From Fibrobacter sp. UWB10 (GTDB lineage Bacteria > Fibrobacterota > Fibrobacteria > Fibrobacterales > Fibrobacteraceae): DNA of 64,000 nucleotides. The position numbers and the translations under genes are program-made. The notes below the pieces were generated by a model, which ran no database searches, was not told the DNA's origin, and saw only the letters and a list, made by a program, of their open reading frames with translations. The stretch lies in contig NZ_FXUE01000002.1 of the NCBI RefSeq assembly GCF_900182935.1, positions 434,001-498,000 on the forward strand, read 5' to 3'. Shown here one piece after another: positions 54,238 to 62,653 of the stretch. Every line of letters starts with the position of its first letter. Position 1 is the first letter of the stretch.

Positions 54238-54254
54238 GCAATATTTGTGCCAAA
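54238..54254 (-). promoter_or_regulatory. Sigma-54-type -24/-12 signature upstream of aspS
   Basis: The minus strand reads TTTGGCACAAATATTGC: TGGCAC, five bases, TTGC, with exactly 10 bases between GG and GC. Its -12 element is about 40 nt before the aspS start. It overlaps a TATATTTC box, so it may be coincidental. Confidence 0.4.
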
Positions 54255-55659: not shown

Positions 55660-56601
55660 CTACAACTTGCCGAGTTCGCGAAGCATTTTTTCGTACTTGT
55701 TGGCACGAGATTCCGCTTCGTCAGCGCGAGCCTTTTCTTCGTTTGCACGGGCTTCCGCTGCATCAGCCTGCTTCTGGATTTCATCAGCACGGTCCTTCGC
55801 CTCGAAAAAATGCTTTTCAGCATCATCAGCACGGTCCTTCGCCTCGAAAAAACGCTTTTCAGCATCATCAGCACGGTCCTTCGCCTCGAAATAGCGCCGT
55901 TCAGCATCATTTGCACGCTGTCGTTCAAGGTCTACGGCGATGTCGATTTCCTGTTGCCAAGTCATATAGCGTTTCCTCGTTTCGTTGTCCGTCTGATACC
56001 ACTTCACCAAGCGATCGATGTTTTCTGTTTCTGGAGAACTCGGCTTCCTTGTTGCAAAGTATTCCATATATTCTCTAATCGATTTTTCAGCGATGTCTCG
56101 GTACTTGTTAAATATATAAAAGTTCTTGAAACAAAGGTCCCCCAATTCAATTTTCGGGTTGTCGACTTCGAGATTCTTGAACATGTACACGGCGCGTCCC
56201 TGCCCGAATATATCTTCGGGACACAGGAACACGATGTAGAGTTCTTTCAAATTGTAATATACTTCACCCTTGTTCAGTGCCTCGCTATCGCACATCGCCT
56301 GGTAATAACGGGTTCGCTTGGGGATTTCCTTGGTGTCTTCCATTTGCATCTCGATATCGAAACTGCGGAGAGTCTCTCCGTCCGGACCAGTTTCCTTCAC
56401 AAAGACGTCGTAGCGGATTCCCTTGTAGAAAGGGCTTACCTCAACAGTCTTTTCTGGCTCGGGATCCCTAAGTTCGTGAATCTTGATGCCGAGAACCGCT
56501 TCGAGGAAGGGTTTGGCTATCTCCTTATGACTAAACACCATAGCAAACATGAATCGGTCTGTAATGGGGAGTTGTTCAAAAGGCGTGCGTTTATTTTCCA
56601 T
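55660..56601 (-). CDS. Rpn-family PD-(D/E)XK nuclease-like protein with coiled-coil tail
   Basis: A 313-residue protein of the Rpn/PD-(D/E)XK transposase-like family. It begins PFEQLPITDRFMFAMVFSHK, then EAVLGIKIHELRDPEPEKTV and the nuclease core YDVFVKE...FDIEMQM (D...ExQ), plus RTRYYQAMCDSEALNKGEVY. Rpn proteins promote RecA-independent recombination and some act in phage defence; many are paralogous. Residues about 225-313 are heptad-rich and include near-identical FEAKDRADDAEK units encoded by a 42-bp tandem repeat, so tail length may vary between strains. Confidence 0.82.
   Translation of the reverse strand: MENKRTPFEQLPITDRFMFAMVFSHKEIAKPFLEAVLGIKIHELRDPEPEKTVEVSPFYKGIRYDVFVKETGPDGETLRSFDIEMQMEDTKEIPKRTRYYQAMCDSEALNKGEVYYNLKELYIVFLCPEDIFGQGRAVYMFKNLEVDNPKIELGDLCFKNFYIFNKYRDIAEKSIREYMEYFATRKPSSPETENIDRLVKWYQTDNETRKRYMTWQQEIDIAVDLERQRANDAERRYFEAKDRADDAEKRFFEAKDRADDAEKHFFEAKDRADEIQKQADAAEARANEEKARADEAESRANKYEKMLRELGKL
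55792..55917. repeat. Three 42-bp tandem repeats in the nuclease gene
   Basis: Units 55792-55833, 55834-55875 and 55876-55917 share GTCCTTCGCCTCGAAA and TTCAGCATCAT. The first two differ by one base; the third is more diverged. Each encodes 14 residues (two heptads), preserving the coiled coil. Confidence 0.85.
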
Positions 56602-56762: not shown

Positions 56763-56779
56763 TTTACATAAAATGTAAA
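56763..56779. promoter_or_regulatory. Upstream activator palindrome 1
   Basis: TTTACA-TAAAA-TGTAAA, a perfect palindrome centred at 56771, about 116 bp upstream of the -24 GG of the dapF sigma-54 promoter. Confidence 0.55.
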
Positions 56780-56793
56780 GTTTGTTTATTAGA

Positions 56794-56810
56794 TTTACAG
56801 AATTTGTAAT
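56794..56810. promoter_or_regulatory. Upstream activator palindrome 2
   Basis: TTTACA-GAATT-TGTAAT, one base off perfect. Its centre (56802) is 31 bp from site 1, close to three helical turns. Confidence 0.55.
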
Positions 56811-56866
56811 ATTTCAAAATTTTGTTTTCCGTGAAATTTGGATAAAATTGGCGTTTTTAGCGTGAT

Positions 56867-56883
56867 TTAACAATTTTTGTAAA
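56867..56883. promoter_or_regulatory. Activator-type palindrome 3, abutting the sigma-54 promoter
   Basis: TTAACA-ATTTT-TGTAAA, one mismatch. Its centre (56875) is 73 bp from site 2, close to seven turns. Binding here could touch the polymerase and repress or tune the promoter. Confidence 0.45.
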
Positions 56884-56884
56884 G

Positions 56885-56901
56885 TTGGCACATTTTTTGC
56901 A
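56885..56901 (+). promoter_or_regulatory. Sigma-54 promoter for dapF-dapL-activator cluster
   Basis: TTGGCACATTTTTTGCA contains TGGCAC, five bases, TTGC, with exactly 10 bases between GG and GC. The -12 GC is 38 nt before the dapF ATG, leaving a leader of about 25 nt that contains AAAGAGA. The cluster itself encodes a sigma-54 activator. Confidence 0.7.
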
Positions 56902-56937
56902 AATGGGGGCGTGGAAAATTATAAAGAGAACTGAATT

Positions 56938-57798
56938 ATGCCAATTAATTTTTCAAAATGGACCGGGTTGGGCAACGATTTCGTGTTGCTGGAACCGGGC
57001 GTGACGCTAGATTATAGCGATAATTTCGAACAACGTGTCATTCAGCTTTGCGACCGCCGTTTCGGTATCGGTGCCGATGGCGTGGTGATTGTGACGCCGT
57101 TGGATAACGATGGTTGCCTGGTAATCGACAAGATTAGCGAAGGCCCTCTGGCAAAGCCTGTTGCAAATGGTGTTGATTTCGAAATGCGCATTTTTAATGC
57201 CGATGGTTCTGAAGCGGCCATGTGCGGTAATGCGACTCGCTGCGTGGCAAAGTACATCCGCAGTCGCGGTCTTGCAAAAGACGCCAATACTAAAGTGTTT
57301 AATCTGCACACCAAGAGCGGCTTGGTGAAGCCCACCCTTTTGGATGACGGTCGCGTGTGCGTGGACATGGGACTCCCGAGGAATTTCTTGGGCTCCATCA
57401 AGCTCACGGCCGACAGCTTCGACTTTACTGCCGAGACGGTTTCCATGGGAAATCCGCACGCGGTGATTTTCGTGGATGACATCGAAAAGATTCAGCTGGA
57501 AAAGTGGGGAAGCATCTTGGAAGTCGACAAGCAGTTCCCCGATCGCTGCAACATTGAATTTGCACAGGTGGTGACACCCACCCAAATCCGCATGCGGGTT
57601 TGGGAACGTGGTTGCGGTGTTACGATGGCTTGTGGTACGGGCAGTTGCGCAACCCTCGTTGCGGCCCAGCGCACTGGCCGCGTGGGCGTAGAAGCCGACA
57701 TCATCTTGGATGGCGGCGTTCTCCACATCAAGCACGAAGAAGGTGGCCCCGTCCTCATGACCGGCCCTGCTGAAGAAGTATTTAGAGGAGTAATTTAA
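56938..57798 (+). CDS. dapF: Diaminopimelate epimerase
   Basis: A 286-residue PLP-independent epimerase converting LL- to meso-diaminopimelate for lysine and peptidoglycan. The first half has KWTGLGNDFVLLE, DRRFGIGADGVVIV and the catalytic cysteine in AAMCGNATRCVA. The second has VSMGNPHAVIFVDD, RVWERGCGVTMACGTGSCAT (second catalytic Cys) and GGPVLMTGPAEEVFRG. It is first in a cluster with dapL, its direct pathway partner, and appears driven by a sigma-54 promoter, which would be unusual for this gene. Confidence 0.96.
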   Translation: MPINFSKWTGLGNDFVLLEPGVTLDYSDNFEQRVIQLCDRRFGIGADGVVIVTPLDNDGCLVIDKISEGPLAKPVANGVDFEMRIFNADGSEAAMCGNATRCVAKYIRSRGLAKDANTKVFNLHTKSGLVKPTLLDDGRVCVDMGLPRNFLGSIKLTADSFDFTAETVSMGNPHAVIFVDDIEKIQLEKWGSILEVDKQFPDRCNIEFAQVVTPTQIRMRVWERGCGVTMACGTGSCATLVAAQRTGRVGVEADIILDGGVLHIKHEEGGPVLMTGPAEEVFRGVI

Positions 57799-57862: not shown

Positions 57863-57921
57863 AATGACAAATGAATAATCCCACATCCCACATTCCACAT
57901 CACACATCTAAAAACCAAATT

Positions 57922-59130
57922 ATGAATTCATCTATCATCAATACAAACTACGACTTGCTGCCTGGCAGCTACCTTTTCTCGACTATCGCCCAGAAAATTA
58001 AGGAATATCAGGCGAAGAAACCCGATGCTGACATTATCCGCCTGGGTATTGGCGACGTGACCACGCCCTTGATTCCGGAAGTCATCAAGGCCATGCACAA
58101 GGCCGTAGACGAAATGTCCGAAAAGGGGACCTTTCGCGGTTACGGCCCCGAACAGGGCTACGATTTCGTGCGCGAAGCAATCGTTCGTGGCGAATACACC
58201 GCCCGCGGCATCGAAATGGATCCGGACGATATCTTCGTGAGCGATGGTTCCAAATGCGATGTGGCGAATATTCAGGAGCTTTTTACAGAAAATGTAAAGA
58301 TTGCAATTCCGGACCCGGTTTACCCGGTCTATTTGGACTCCAATGTGATGGCTGGTCGTGCAGGCGTGTTGCAAAGTGACGGACATTTTTCTAAGGTGAC
58401 CTACCTTGCTTCGACCGCCGAAAACAATTTCCAGCCGGATTTGCCCAAGGAAGCGGTGCAGCTGATCTACCTTTGTAGCCCGAACAACCCGACCGGTACG
58501 GTACTCAGCCGCGAAACCTTGCAGAAGTTCGTCAACTACGCCAACGAAAATGGTGCATTGATCCTGTTCGATGGCGCCTACAACTGCTACATTCAGGATG
58601 AATCGCTGCCGCATTCCATCTTCGAAATTCCGGGTGCACGCACTTGCGCCATTGAATTCCGCAGCTTCAGTAAGACTGCCGGCTTTACGGGCGTGCGTTG
58701 TGCCTACACGGTGATCCCGCACGAACTTTCGAAACTCCGTGCTATGTGGAACCGCAGACAGTGCACCAAGTTCAACGGTGTAAGCTACGTGACGCAGCGT
58801 GCCGCCGAGGCGATTTACAGCCCGATTGGTTGGCAGCAGACCAAGGATGTCATTGCCGGTTACATGCGCACGGCGGGCGTTATCCGCAAGGAACTGACTG
58901 CCGCGGGTTACACGGTGTTCGGTGGCGAACATGCCCCGTACATCTGGTGGAAAATCGCGGATGGTGAAAAATCATTCGACTTCTTTGACCGCCTGCTTGC
59001 TACCTGCGAAGTCGTGGGTACTCCGGGTAGCGGCTTTGGCCCTTGCGGCGAAGGATACTTCCGCCTGACCGCCTTCGGTGACTACGAACGCACCTGTGAA
59101 GCCCTTAGGAGAATCAGGGAAAAACTCTAA
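57922..59130 (+). CDS. dapL: LL-diaminopimelate aminotransferase
   Basis: A 402-residue PLP enzyme converting tetrahydrodipicolinate to LL-DAP in one step, with glutamate as amino donor. ATG 57922 is chosen because it gives NTNYDLLPGSYLFSTIAQK, the family N-terminus. The earlier frame lies in low-complexity sequence. Motifs: IRLGIGDVTTPLIPEVIKAM, GTFRGYGPEQGYDFVREAI, SDGSKCDVANIQELF, DPVYPVYLDSNVM, YLCSPNNPTGTVLS, and the PLP lysine in FRSFSKTAGFTGVRCAY. With dapF it specifies the aminotransferase variant of lysine synthesis. The gap to dapF carries a two-hairpin element. Confidence 0.95.
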   Translation: MNSSIINTNYDLLPGSYLFSTIAQKIKEYQAKKPDADIIRLGIGDVTTPLIPEVIKAMHKAVDEMSEKGTFRGYGPEQGYDFVREAIVRGEYTARGIEMDPDDIFVSDGSKCDVANIQELFTENVKIAIPDPVYPVYLDSNVMAGRAGVLQSDGHFSKVTYLASTAENNFQPDLPKEAVQLIYLCSPNNPTGTVLSRETLQKFVNYANENGALILFDGAYNCYIQDESLPHSIFEIPGARTCAIEFRSFSKTAGFTGVRCAYTVIPHELSKLRAMWNRRQCTKFNGVSYVTQRAAEAIYSPIGWQQTKDVIAGYMRTAGVIRKELTAAGYTVFGGEHAPYIWWKIADGEKSFDFFDRLLATCEVVGTPGSGFGPCGEGYFRLTAFGDYERTCEALRRIREKL

Positions 59131-59153: not shown

Positions 59154-60680
59154 ATGTCCATGCCCTCTCCAATAGGTTCAGAAATCTCGGTCGTCCAGAA
59201 GATCAGTGTTGCGATCATTCACGAACGCAACGTTGAAAAGTTGCTCGAGAATGTGCTCGACATTCTGGAATCCGAACTCGGCATGCTTCGCGGAACTTTC
59301 GCGTTGCTTTTTGGCGATACGCTTAAGATTGAAGCGTCTCGCGGACTGGATGAATCCGAAAAACAGCGCGGTTTGTACCGCATGGGTGAAGGTATTACGG
59401 GCCATGTCGCTGAACGCGGCGTGAGCCATGTGATTCCTGACCTGCGCAAAGACTCCCGCTTCTTGAACCGTACGGGTAGCCGCCATTATGACTCCCAGGT
59501 GGCTTTTATTTGTGTGCCTTTGATTCACGACGGTCAGGTGATCGGAACGCTTTCGATTGACCGCCCGGTGGATGGCGCTACTGATTTAGACCGCGATGTG
59601 GCTTTGCTTGAAATCATTGCAAACATCACGGGTGATGCCGCTAACGAATGCATTGAACTGCATAACGAACACGAAGCAATGCTCGAAGAAAACCGCAAGC
59701 TTCGCGACATGCTTTCGAGCAACCCCGGCGAACTGGTGGGTAACTGCCGCGAAATGCAGCAGATTTACGAACAGGTGCGTCAGGTGGCTCCGAGCGATGC
59801 GACGGTTCTGATTCGTGGCGGTAGCGGTACGGGTAAGGAAATGATTGCCCGTGCAATTGTGAATTTGTCTGAAAGAAAGGACAAGCCTTTCATTACGCTG
59901 AACTGCGCGGCTCTGCCCGAGAACCTGGTGGAAAGCGAATTGTTCGGTCACGAAAAGGGTGCGTTTACGGGTGCGGTGAATCGCCGTATTGGTCGTGCCG
60001 AAGCTGCCGACGGGGGTACACTCTTCCTCGACGAAATTGGCGACCTTACCATGCAGACTCAAGTGAAGCTCCTGCGATTCTTGCAGGAACGTACCTTTAG
60101 CCGCGTGGGCAGTAACGAAGAACTCCATTCCGATGTGAGATTCTTGGCTGCTACGAGCCGTAACTTGGAAGAGCTGATTGCGCAGGGCAAGTTCCGCGAA
60201 GACTTGTTCTACCGCTTGAACATTTTCCCGATTACCATGCCCGATTTGGCAAAGCGCAAGTCCGACATTATCTTGCTGGCGGAGCACTTCATTGAAAAGA
60301 TGAATCTGCGCTACAACAAGAAGGTGGCCCGCCTTTCGACGACGGCGATCAACTTGCTCATGAGCTACCACTGGCCGGGTAACGTGCGTGAATTGGAAAA
60401 CTGCATGGAACGCGCGGTGCTTACCGCAAGCGACGACTGCATTCACAGCTACAACTTGCCGCCTTCGCTGCAGACAAGCCTGAGCGTCGGACCTTCTGGT
60501 GCCGTGACAACCAAGACCGCTCCGCTCGAAGTGATGATGAACAATTACGAACGTGAAATCATTACCGAGGCAATCAAGCGCAATAACGGTAACCTTTCTG
60601 CCGCAGGCCGCGATTTGGGTGTGTCTCCGCGCATGATGAATTACCGTATGAATAAACTCGGCATCAAGTCCGGGCGTTGA
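59154..60680 (+). CDS. Sigma-54-dependent activator (GAF-AAA+-Fis), NifA-like
   Basis: A 508-residue enhancer-binding protein. GAF sensor (about 15-175: LLENVLDILESELGMLRG; FICVPLIHDGQVIGTLSIDR), AAA+ domain (about 190-425) with Walker A RGGSGTGKEMIARA, the sigma-54 contact loop ELFGHEKGAFTGAV, Walker B GGTLFLDEIGDL and the arginine-finger region FREDLFYRLN, then a Fis-type helix-turn-helix (about 465-505, NLSAAGRDLGVSPRMMNYRM). The usual GESGTGKE reads GGSGTGKE here. ATG 59154 or 59160 is the start. It follows dapL by 23 bases, so it may activate its own operon. The GAF ligand is unknown. Confidence 0.92.
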   Translation: MSMPSPIGSEISVVQKISVAIIHERNVEKLLENVLDILESELGMLRGTFALLFGDTLKIEASRGLDESEKQRGLYRMGEGITGHVAERGVSHVIPDLRKDSRFLNRTGSRHYDSQVAFICVPLIHDGQVIGTLSIDRPVDGATDLDRDVALLEIIANITGDAANECIELHNEHEAMLEENRKLRDMLSSNPGELVGNCREMQQIYEQVRQVAPSDATVLIRGGSGTGKEMIARAIVNLSERKDKPFITLNCAALPENLVESELFGHEKGAFTGAVNRRIGRAEAADGGTLFLDEIGDLTMQTQVKLLRFLQERTFSRVGSNEELHSDVRFLAATSRNLEELIAQGKFREDLFYRLNIFPITMPDLAKRKSDIILLAEHFIEKMNLRYNKKVARLSTTAINLLMSYHWPGNVRELENCMERAVLTASDDCIHSYNLPPSLQTSLSVGPSGAVTTKTAPLEVMMNNYEREIITEAIKRNNGNLSAAGRDLGVSPRMMNYRMNKLGIKSGR

Positions 60681-60709: not shown

Positions 60710-62653
60710 ATGTTTGGATTTTACCGATTCGCATCTGTTTGCCCGACGCTGAAAGTCGCCGATACCGCCTACAATACAGCTGAGATTATCCGCTGTGCAA
60801 CCGAGGCTATCCAAAATGACGCTGCCTTCGTGGTGTTCCCGGAGCTTTGCATTGCGGGGTATACCTGTAGTGATCTGTTCCATCAGGAACTGTTGCTTAA
60901 GAAGAGCGTAGAATCGCTTTCGAAGATTGCAGAAGCGTTTGCAACGAGCGATACGGTGATTGCGGTGGGACTCCCGCTGCGAATCTTCGGTTGCCTTTAC
61001 AACTGCGCTGCCTTTGTGCAGAAGGGTAAACTTGTGGCGGTGACGCCCAAGATTCATTTGCCGAACCAGCGTGAATTTTATGAAAAACGTCACTTTTCGA
61101 GCGGTCGCGACTTGCTTCGCGCTCCGACGACTTGCCCAGTCGAGGGCTTTGGCGATGTGCCGGTGACGAACTTCTTTACGGTTGCCGGAAAGTCTGGTGC
61201 TGAAGTTCGCGTGGGCGTGGAACTTTGCGAAGACTTGTGGACGGCGGTGCCGCCGAGCGGCGAACTTGCCCTGGCTGGCGCGAATGTGATTGTGAACCTG
61301 TCGGCAAGCGATGCCTTGGTCGGCAAGCGTGATTATCGCCGTAATCTGGTGATGAACCAGTCTGCTCGCTGCATGGCTGCCTATGTTTATTCGTCGGCGG
61401 GCGTGCATGAATCTACGACGGACATGGTCTTTAGCGGTCACTTGATGATTGCCGAGAACGGCAGCATGATTGCCGAAAGCAAGCCGTTTAGCCGCGAATC
61501 TGAAATTATTTATGCTGACATCGATGTTGAACGCCTGAACATGCAACGCTTGAGCGAAGGCTCGTTCCAGGATTTCGACAGCCGGAGCTTCTATGCGCGC
61601 GCGGCGAGTTTCGATGGCCTGCGTTCGATTGATAGCCTTAAGTACCGCTTTGTGGCGCCGATGCCGTTTGTGCCGGGCAACATCGAAACTCGCGACAAGT
61701 CCTGCACCGAGATCTTCAATATCCAATGCGCAGGACTTGCGAAGCGACTCGAAGCGTCGCATTCGAAGCGCGCGGTGATTGGCCTTTCGGGCGGCTTGGA
61801 TTCTACGCTTGCCTTGCTTGTGGTCGCAGAAACATTCAAACTCTTGAAACGCCCTGCTTCTGAAATCCTCGTGCTCACGATGCCTGGATTCGGAACGACC
61901 AAGCGCACCAAGAATAACGCTGTCACGATGGCGGAACTCTTGGGCGTGGAACTGCGCACGGTCGACATCCAAAAGGCTTGCCTGCAGCATTTTGCCGACA
62001 TCGGTCACGACCCGAAAACGCTCAATGTGACTTACGAGAATGTTCAGGCCCGCGAACGCACGCAGATTCTGATGGACATTGCCAACAGTGTAGGCGGAAT
62101 CGTTATCGGTACGGGTGACCTTTCTGAAATCGCTCTCGGCTGGAGCACTTATAATGCCGACCACATGTCCATGTATGCAGTGAACTGCGATATTCCGAAA
62201 ACGCTGGTGCGCCATGTGGTGGGCTGGTATGCCGACCATGCCGAAAGCTTTACCGCCGACAAGAAGACGGCGAAAGAACTTGCCGACGTGCTTCGCGATA
62301 TCTTGGACACGCCGGTGTCGCCGGAACTTTTGCCCGCCGATGCGAACGGCCAGATTGCACAGAAGACCGAAAGTATCTTGGGCGCTTACGAAATCCACGA
62401 CTTCTATCTGTACCACTTTGCAAAGTATGGTGCCGCTCCGCAAAAGCTCCTGTTCCTTGCGAAGTACGCCTTTGCCGGCAAGTTCAGCGACGAAGAATTG
62501 GAAAAGGCTTTAGCCGTATTCGTGCGCAGATTCTTTACGCAGCAGTTCAAACGCAGCTGCATTCCTGACGGCCCGAAGGTCGGTACGATTTCCCTGTCGC
62601 CCCGCGCCGACTGGCGCATGCCCAGTGATTCAAGCTTCAGCGATTGGATGTAG
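60710..62653 (+). CDS. nadE: Glutamine-dependent NAD+ synthetase
   Basis: A 647-residue two-domain enzyme making NAD from deamido-NAD, glutamine and ATP. The N-terminal nitrilase-type glutaminase has its catalytic triad in FPELCIAGY (Glu), TPKIHLPNQREFYEKR (Lys) and GVELCEDLW (Cys). The C-terminal synthetase domain has the ATP loop VIGLSGGLDSTLALLVV, GFGTTKRTKNNA and GTGDLSEIALGW. Length fits the long glutamine-dependent class. It lies 29 bases after the sigma-54 activator but has its own promoter box. Its end overlaps the convergent small membrane gene by 17 bases. Confidence 0.95.
   Translation: MFGFYRFASVCPTLKVADTAYNTAEIIRCATEAIQNDAAFVVFPELCIAGYTCSDLFHQELLLKKSVESLSKIAEAFATSDTVIAVGLPLRIFGCLYNCAAFVQKGKLVAVTPKIHLPNQREFYEKRHFSSGRDLLRAPTTCPVEGFGDVPVTNFFTVAGKSGAEVRVGVELCEDLWTAVPPSGELALAGANVIVNLSASDALVGKRDYRRNLVMNQSARCMAAYVYSSAGVHESTTDMVFSGHLMIAENGSMIAESKPFSRESEIIYADIDVERLNMQRLSEGSFQDFDSRSFYARAASFDGLRSIDSLKYRFVAPMPFVPGNIETRDKSCTEIFNIQCAGLAKRLEASHSKRAVIGLSGGLDSTLALLVVAETFKLLKRPASEILVLTMPGFGTTKRTKNNAVTMAELLGVELRTVDIQKACLQHFADIGHDPKTLNVTYENVQARERTQILMDIANSVGGIVIGTGDLSEIALGWSTYNADHMSMYAVNCDIPKTLVRHVVGWYADHAESFTADKKTAKELADVLRDILDTPVSPELLPADANGQIAQKTESILGAYEIHDFYLYHFAKYGAAPQKLLFLAKYAFAGKFSDEELEKALAVFVRRFFTQQFKRSCIPDGPKVGTISLSPRADWRMPSDSSFSDWM

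Follow-up and report, generated by a model that had tools for sequence, protein, structure and literature searches.

The genes dapF, dapL, P0001 and nadE very probably form the autoregulated home operon of a sigma-54-dependent nitrogen-assimilation regulon, in which the activator P0001 would bind paired operator sites upstream of the promoters that it controls. What was read directly from the genomes is a promoter, its operator sites with their spacing and conservation, the set of genes that carry them, and the occurrence of the activator gene in clusters with this set. Throughout, 'window' refers to the whole 64,000-nucleotide stretch that was analysed.

A sigma-54 promoter and three operator sites upstream of dapF

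The intergenic region upstream of dapF is 336 bp long, with a G+C content of 32%. It contains on the forward strand (56886-56900) a perfect match to the sigma-54 promoter TGGCAC-N5-TTGC, TGGCACATTTTTTGC, in which the GG and GC of the -24/-12 element are ten bases apart, as in a sigma-54 promoter. With position -12 assigned to the C of the downstream GC, which also sets the site positions given below, transcription is predicted by simple arithmetic to start at 56912. Upstream of the promoter lie three palindromes of the form TTTACA-N5-TGTAAA. Site 1 (TTTACATAAAATGTAAA, 56763-56779, centre at about -141) has no mismatch and is a putative distal enhancer site; site 2 (TTTACAGAATTTGTAAT, 56794-56810, one mismatch, centre at about -110) pairs with it at 31 bp; and site 3 (TTAACAATTTTTGTAAA, 56867-56883, one mismatch, centre at about -37) abuts the -24 element. 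The centres are thus 31 and 73 bp apart. The initial annotation had described the promoter element, the three palindromes with these spacings and the contact of the third with the promoter, and each was found where it had been placed. The rpoN gene, on whose presence that annotation depended, was also found in the genome (PF04552, 169.3 bits, in an open frame of 547 aa).

The same annotation held that the fixed N5 spacing speaks against chance, and the shuffling analysis agrees. When the 336-bp region was shuffled 20,000 times with its dinucleotides preserved, no version had three sites with at most one mismatch, and a single one had two. Over the whole window, 8 palindromes with at most two mismatches were counted, compared to 2.45 expected, and none of 100 shuffles reached this number.

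The promoter is followed by dapF (diaminopimelate epimerase, 56938-57798, forward strand; TIGR00652, 268 bits for a cut-off of 114.65; PF01678) and dapL (LL-diaminopimelate aminotransferase, 57871-59130, forward strand; TIGR03542, 651 bits for a cut-off of 364.7). The TIGR03542 match begins at residue 22 of the long dapL frame, and the true start is probably a downstream ATG rather than that of the long frame. Next come, on the same strand, the gene for P0001, a NifA-like one-component sigma-54 activator of GAF-AAA+-Fis layout (59154-60680; PF13185/PF01590, PF00158, PF02954), and nadE, encoding a glutamine-dependent NAD+ synthetase (60710-62653; NF002730, 832 bits for a cut-off of 473). No sigma-54 site was found in the 29-bp gap between the activator gene and nadE, which is the probable last gene of the operon.

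A further perfect palindrome lies inside dapL (58282-58298). Of 30 orthologues, 12 have it in perfect form and 11, the distant ones, have lost it, which does not support a fourth conserved operator; it may be a coincidence of the coding sequence. On the reverse strand, a gene that immediately precedes the dapF promoter and points away from it (55660-56601) encodes an Rpn-family PD-(D/E)XK transposase/nuclease with alanine-zipper repeats. A second perfect TGGCAC-N5-TTGC, without palindromes, is located upstream of the aspS start (54238-54252, reverse strand).

Conservation among dapF orthologues

Thirty dapF orthologues, from the genome of the window and from related genomes, were compared in their upstream intergenic regions; owing to this kinship, the counts that follow are not independent. 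The promoter, in the form TGGCA(C/T)-N5-(T/C)TGC, was kept in 29 of the 30, and all three operator sites were kept in each of these 29. Conservation of the element and of the palindromes in related genomes, the alignment check proposed for the initial annotation, was therefore borne out. Most copies of sites 1 and 2 match perfectly or differ at one position. The two sites are spaced by 31 bp in 26 of the 29 orthologues and by 30 bp in 2; the last one was counted as 49 through an extra weak match, its true pair being at 31. The distance from the start of site 2 to the -24 element varies from 91 to 104 bp while the spacing of the pair stays nearly fixed, which is as expected of enhancers.

Site 3 follows another pattern. 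Its start is 19 bp from the -24 element in 28 orthologues and 20 bp in one, and it is never perfect in any of the 29. The half near the promoter, TGTAAA, is invariant (29/29); the far half is TTAACA, ATAACA, TTTACT or TTTACC. The other promoters of the regulon described below showed no proximal site at this position. A weak site that is kept weak, touches the promoter and is absent from that place elsewhere suggests a self-limiting, or governor, site at the activator's own operon. Overlapping the upstream edge of the promoter, it would be filled only at high levels of activator, and would then limit expression.

A shared operator at nitrogen-assimilation genes

A scan of the window's own genome (3.48 Mb) was conducted blind to gene function, gene names being read afterwards from the translated sequences. 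It yielded 22 perfect TGGCAC-N5-TTGC sites, compared to 8 in a reversed control, and 27 palindromes that were perfect or had a single mismatch. Such a palindrome stands upstream of a perfect -24/-12 element at dapF, purF, glnN (type III glutamine synthetase) and gltB (glutamate synthase, GOGAT), where about 0.02 coincidences would be expected for 22 promoters. In the relatives, a site no more than one mismatch from the consensus was present at the promoters of dapF (13/13), gltB (16/21), glnN (11/16), purF (8/8) and pyrG (5/6), for at most 0.2 expected per gene set. Pairs of sites at 28-33 bp, of which none were expected, numbered 13, 17, 7, 4 and 6 for dapF, gltB, glnN, purF and pyrG, respectively. 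At these promoters enrichment was specific to the N5 spacer: none was seen with spacers of 3, 4, 6 or 7.

The doublet pattern was then sought in 61 genomes of the family, giving 24 places compared to 0 with the reversed control. Those inspected precede dapF, purF, gltB/glnN and pyrG; unusual positions were found between gltB and glnN and in front of pyrG. In general, the paired sites are 29-31 bp apart, at a varying distance of about 70-190 bp upstream of sigma-54 elements. Two further loci would be expected members of a nitrogen regulon: glnK-amtB has a conserved sigma-54 promoter but merely weak or half sites, and urtA in the own genome likewise has weak or half sites. No palindromes were found at eight other sigma-54-type promoters (those of dnaK, groES, a clpB-like gene, hsp20 and others).

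The operator is thus shared by glutamine synthetase, GOGAT and related genes, which defines a putative nitrogen-assimilation regulon. GlnN, GOGAT, PurF, PyrG and the glutamine-dependent NadE all make or spend glutamine or glutamate, and DapL is an aminotransferase. Since the same sites precede glnN, gltB, purF and pyrG, the diaminopimelate (DAP) genes appear to be one branch of this regulon.

The candidate activator and its relatives

P0001 has the hallmarks of an enhancer-binding protein, namely an AAA+ domain with a GAFTGA motif (residue 269), Walker A (222) and Walker B (287), and a Fis-type helix-turn-helix. The domain matches and this motif support the GAF-AAA+-Fis activator that had been predicted in the cluster. 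Its best NCBIfam match is the NifA profile TIGR01817, at 462.5 bits, below the cut-off of 528.85; its best match among solved structures is a Nif-specific regulatory protein (9qq6), and its GAF domain matches the NifA-like Nlh1/Nlh2 of Aquifex. With a score under the cut-off and TTTACA-N5-TGTAAA sites at assimilation genes, it was filed as NifA-like rather than as a NifA equivalog. Assignment to NtrC was rejected, as the N-terminal domain is a GAF domain and there is no receiver domain.

An orthologue of P0001 (81-100% identity) is present in the genomes that have these dapF sites. In five of the relatives, the activator gene belongs to a single cluster of 20-30 kb with dapF, glnN, gltB and glnK, which in several of the five also includes purF or pyrG. 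Homologues in Treponema, other Spirochaetaceae, Verrucomicrobia and Desulfovibrionaceae metagenome-assembled genomes (MAGs) adjoin amtB, glnK, glnN or gltB. No palindromes were seen at the corresponding genes in genera of the family that have no P0001 orthologue. Relatives of the activator in the PVC group have no such palindromes nearby either, and this speaks against the assignment. Based on linkage, distribution and autoregulation, P0001 is the most likely activator of these promoters, that of its own operon included. One genome lacks the activator, dapF, glnN1, gltB, glnK and pyrG together, as well as a regulon-type purF; because the absent genes cluster, a gap in the assembly explains this more simply, and this genome was not used as a natural knockout.

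In a Victivallis MAG the genes are arranged as dapF-dapL-activator. Its activator is 71% identical to P0001, a higher value than the 46-47% of homologues from other genera of the family to which the window belongs. This relation makes horizontal transfer likely.

The genome also encodes a paralogue, ACT2 (C1:672165), which lacks the GAF domain and has GAFIGA in place of GAFTGA and DD instead of DE in Walker B. Its gene and a second glnN, likewise encoding a type III glutamine synthetase, are transcribed divergently. In this region (C1:671800-673181), TTTACA-N4-TGTAAA palindromes with at most one mismatch were found in all 11 genomes compared, and no -24/-12 element was found in any of them. 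The recognition helix of ACT2 is similar to that of P0001. As related proteins stand beside related half-sites, these sequences suggest that the P0001/ACT2 subfamily recognizes the TTTACA half-site. ACT2 itself is disfavoured as the binder of the N5 palindromes, given the N4 palindromes and the lack of a -24/-12 element in its region.

Proposed mechanism and alternative explanations

In the mechanism that we infer, dapF-dapL-P0001-nadE would be transcribed from the sigma-54 promoter. P0001 would bind the paired TTTACA-N5-TGTAAA enhancers, whose spacing of 29-31 bp is about three helical turns, upstream of glnN, gltB, purF and dapF, and of pyrG in relatives. It would then oligomerize and, through DNA looping and ATP hydrolysis, open sigma-54 polymerase complexes under nitrogen scarcity, with site 3 as a possible brake on its own operon. 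Nitrogen status, as the presumed signal, might be perceived through the GAF domain (2-oxoglutarate or glutamine), through the PII protein GlnK, or both, a guess taken from NifA biology. We propose more tentatively, as a quite possible extension that we would stop short of calling probable, that one GAF-domain activator replaces NtrB/NtrC as the master nitrogen regulator of the lineage. It would tie DAP, lysine and cell-wall synthesis, NAD+, and purine and pyrimidine amination to nitrogen status; its weak own operator would be a limiter; and the degenerate ACT2 would read N4 versions of the half-site beside the second glutamine synthetase.

The regulon could be real and its palindromes be bound by another activator, P0001 having other targets. 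The genome has six other proteins with the sigma-54-type AAA+ domain (PF00158), among them a response-regulator type at C2:157017 and a NifA-like protein at C4:291790-293271, which has the same GAF-AAA+-Fis layout and 42% identity. We consider this explanation unlikely: only the P0001 gene is located downstream of these sites and, in relatives, in a cluster with its presumed targets, and it is the paralogue with a similar recognition helix, ACT2, that adjoins the same half-sites at N4 spacing. The initial annotation proposed an activator that drives the lysine and peptidoglycan diaminopimelate genes and itself. The sigma-54 promoter, the enhancer-type sites and the linked protein as likeliest activator stand; a dedicated switch, sensing a DAP or lysine signal and serving mainly dapF-dapL, is not supported. 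Although dapF and dapL come first in the operon, an order kept in the Victivallis MAG, it is highly improbable that they are the main targets when the same sites precede glnN, gltB, purF and pyrG, and when homologues elsewhere adjoin amtB, glnK, glnN or gltB without dap genes.

An unrelated repressor whose sites happen to lie upstream of these promoters would account for the overlap of site 3 with the edge of the promoter, a place suited to repression, and for the palindromes of the ACT2 region that have no -24/-12 element. It is nevertheless very unlikely, as pairs 29-31 bp apart and some 70-190 bp upstream of sigma-54 elements are typical of enhancers, and sigma-54 transcription requires an activator anyway. 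Finally, AT-rich DNA such as this region may produce palindromes by chance; against the shuffles, the 29 orthologues that keep all sites and the 24 doublets with none in the control, this explanation is refuted and its likelihood negligible. We therefore retain the nitrogen-assimilation regulon with P0001 as its probable activator.

Comparison with known systems

Sigma-54 control of nitrogen assimilation is classical, with NtrC as the standard activator. The classical glnAp2 enhancers are at -140 and -108, and NtrC sites have the 6-N5-6 shape TGCACC-N5-GGTGCA; the dapF sites at -141 and -110 are close to these positions, and TTTACA-N5-TGTAAA has the same shape. Like glnALG of E. coli, the dapF operon appears to be a sigma-54 nitrogen operon encoding its own activator, with two strong enhancers and a weaker promoter-proximal site; at glnAp2, two strong enhancer sites are combined with weaker promoter-proximal governor sites (PMC3870243). 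The two systems differ in that P0001 is a one-component GAF activator and not a phosphorylated response regulator, that the half-site TTTACA is another one, that the home operon holds dapF-dapL-nadE and not glnA, and that a single proximal site immediately adjoins the -24 element. We would thus have a natural glnAp2-like layout, two enhancers and a weak proximal site, built from a half-site of unrelated sequence and an activator of the one-component type.

NifA has the same domain order as P0001, whose best NCBIfam profile and best PDB match are of the Nif type. P0001 falls below the nifA cut-off, and its sites, found at assimilation genes, differ from the NifA-type TGT-N10..12-ACA (PMC6615313). 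Another system comparable by description is DVU1949 of Desulfovibrio vulgaris, a one-component sigma-54 activator with a computed regulon of nitrogen metabolism and transport and a proposed autoregulation (Kazakov et al. 2015, PMC4641369). It differs in the genes transcribed together with it: these are DVU1952 and, in four genomes, iorAB (PMC4641369), and neither dap genes nor nadE. Prediction of a one-component activator for a comparable nitrogen regulon thus has a precedent; we found no earlier description of the network in these bacteria.

Searches combining Fibrobacter with sigma-54, RpoN or NifA gave no paper on this system, and in the literature searched we found neither a nitrogen regulator nor a sigma-54 regulon described for this group; the present analysis offers a candidate regulator, operator and gene set. 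Ammonia is a main nitrogen source for rumen fibre degraders, and the nitrogen network would here gain genes for DAP, NAD+ and nucleotide amination. The initial annotation knew of no described link between sigma-54 and dapF-dapL. This holds in so far as a search for dapL with sigma-54 gave incidental co-mentions only; the broad link to diaminopimelate is not wholly new, as sigma-54 in general has been linked to cell-envelope precursors that include it (Francke et al. 2011, PMC3162934).

Other sigma-54 elements in the genome

Perfect -24/-12 elements without palindromes precede a clpB-like gene, groES, dnaK, hsp20 and the gene of an RpoD-like sigma factor. Judging from these sequences, heat-shock genes and a further sigma factor may be under sigma-54 control in this genome. 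A sigma-54 site is also located at C1:238946, between the gene of another sigma-54 activator and that of a small CpxP-like, secreted-looking protein.
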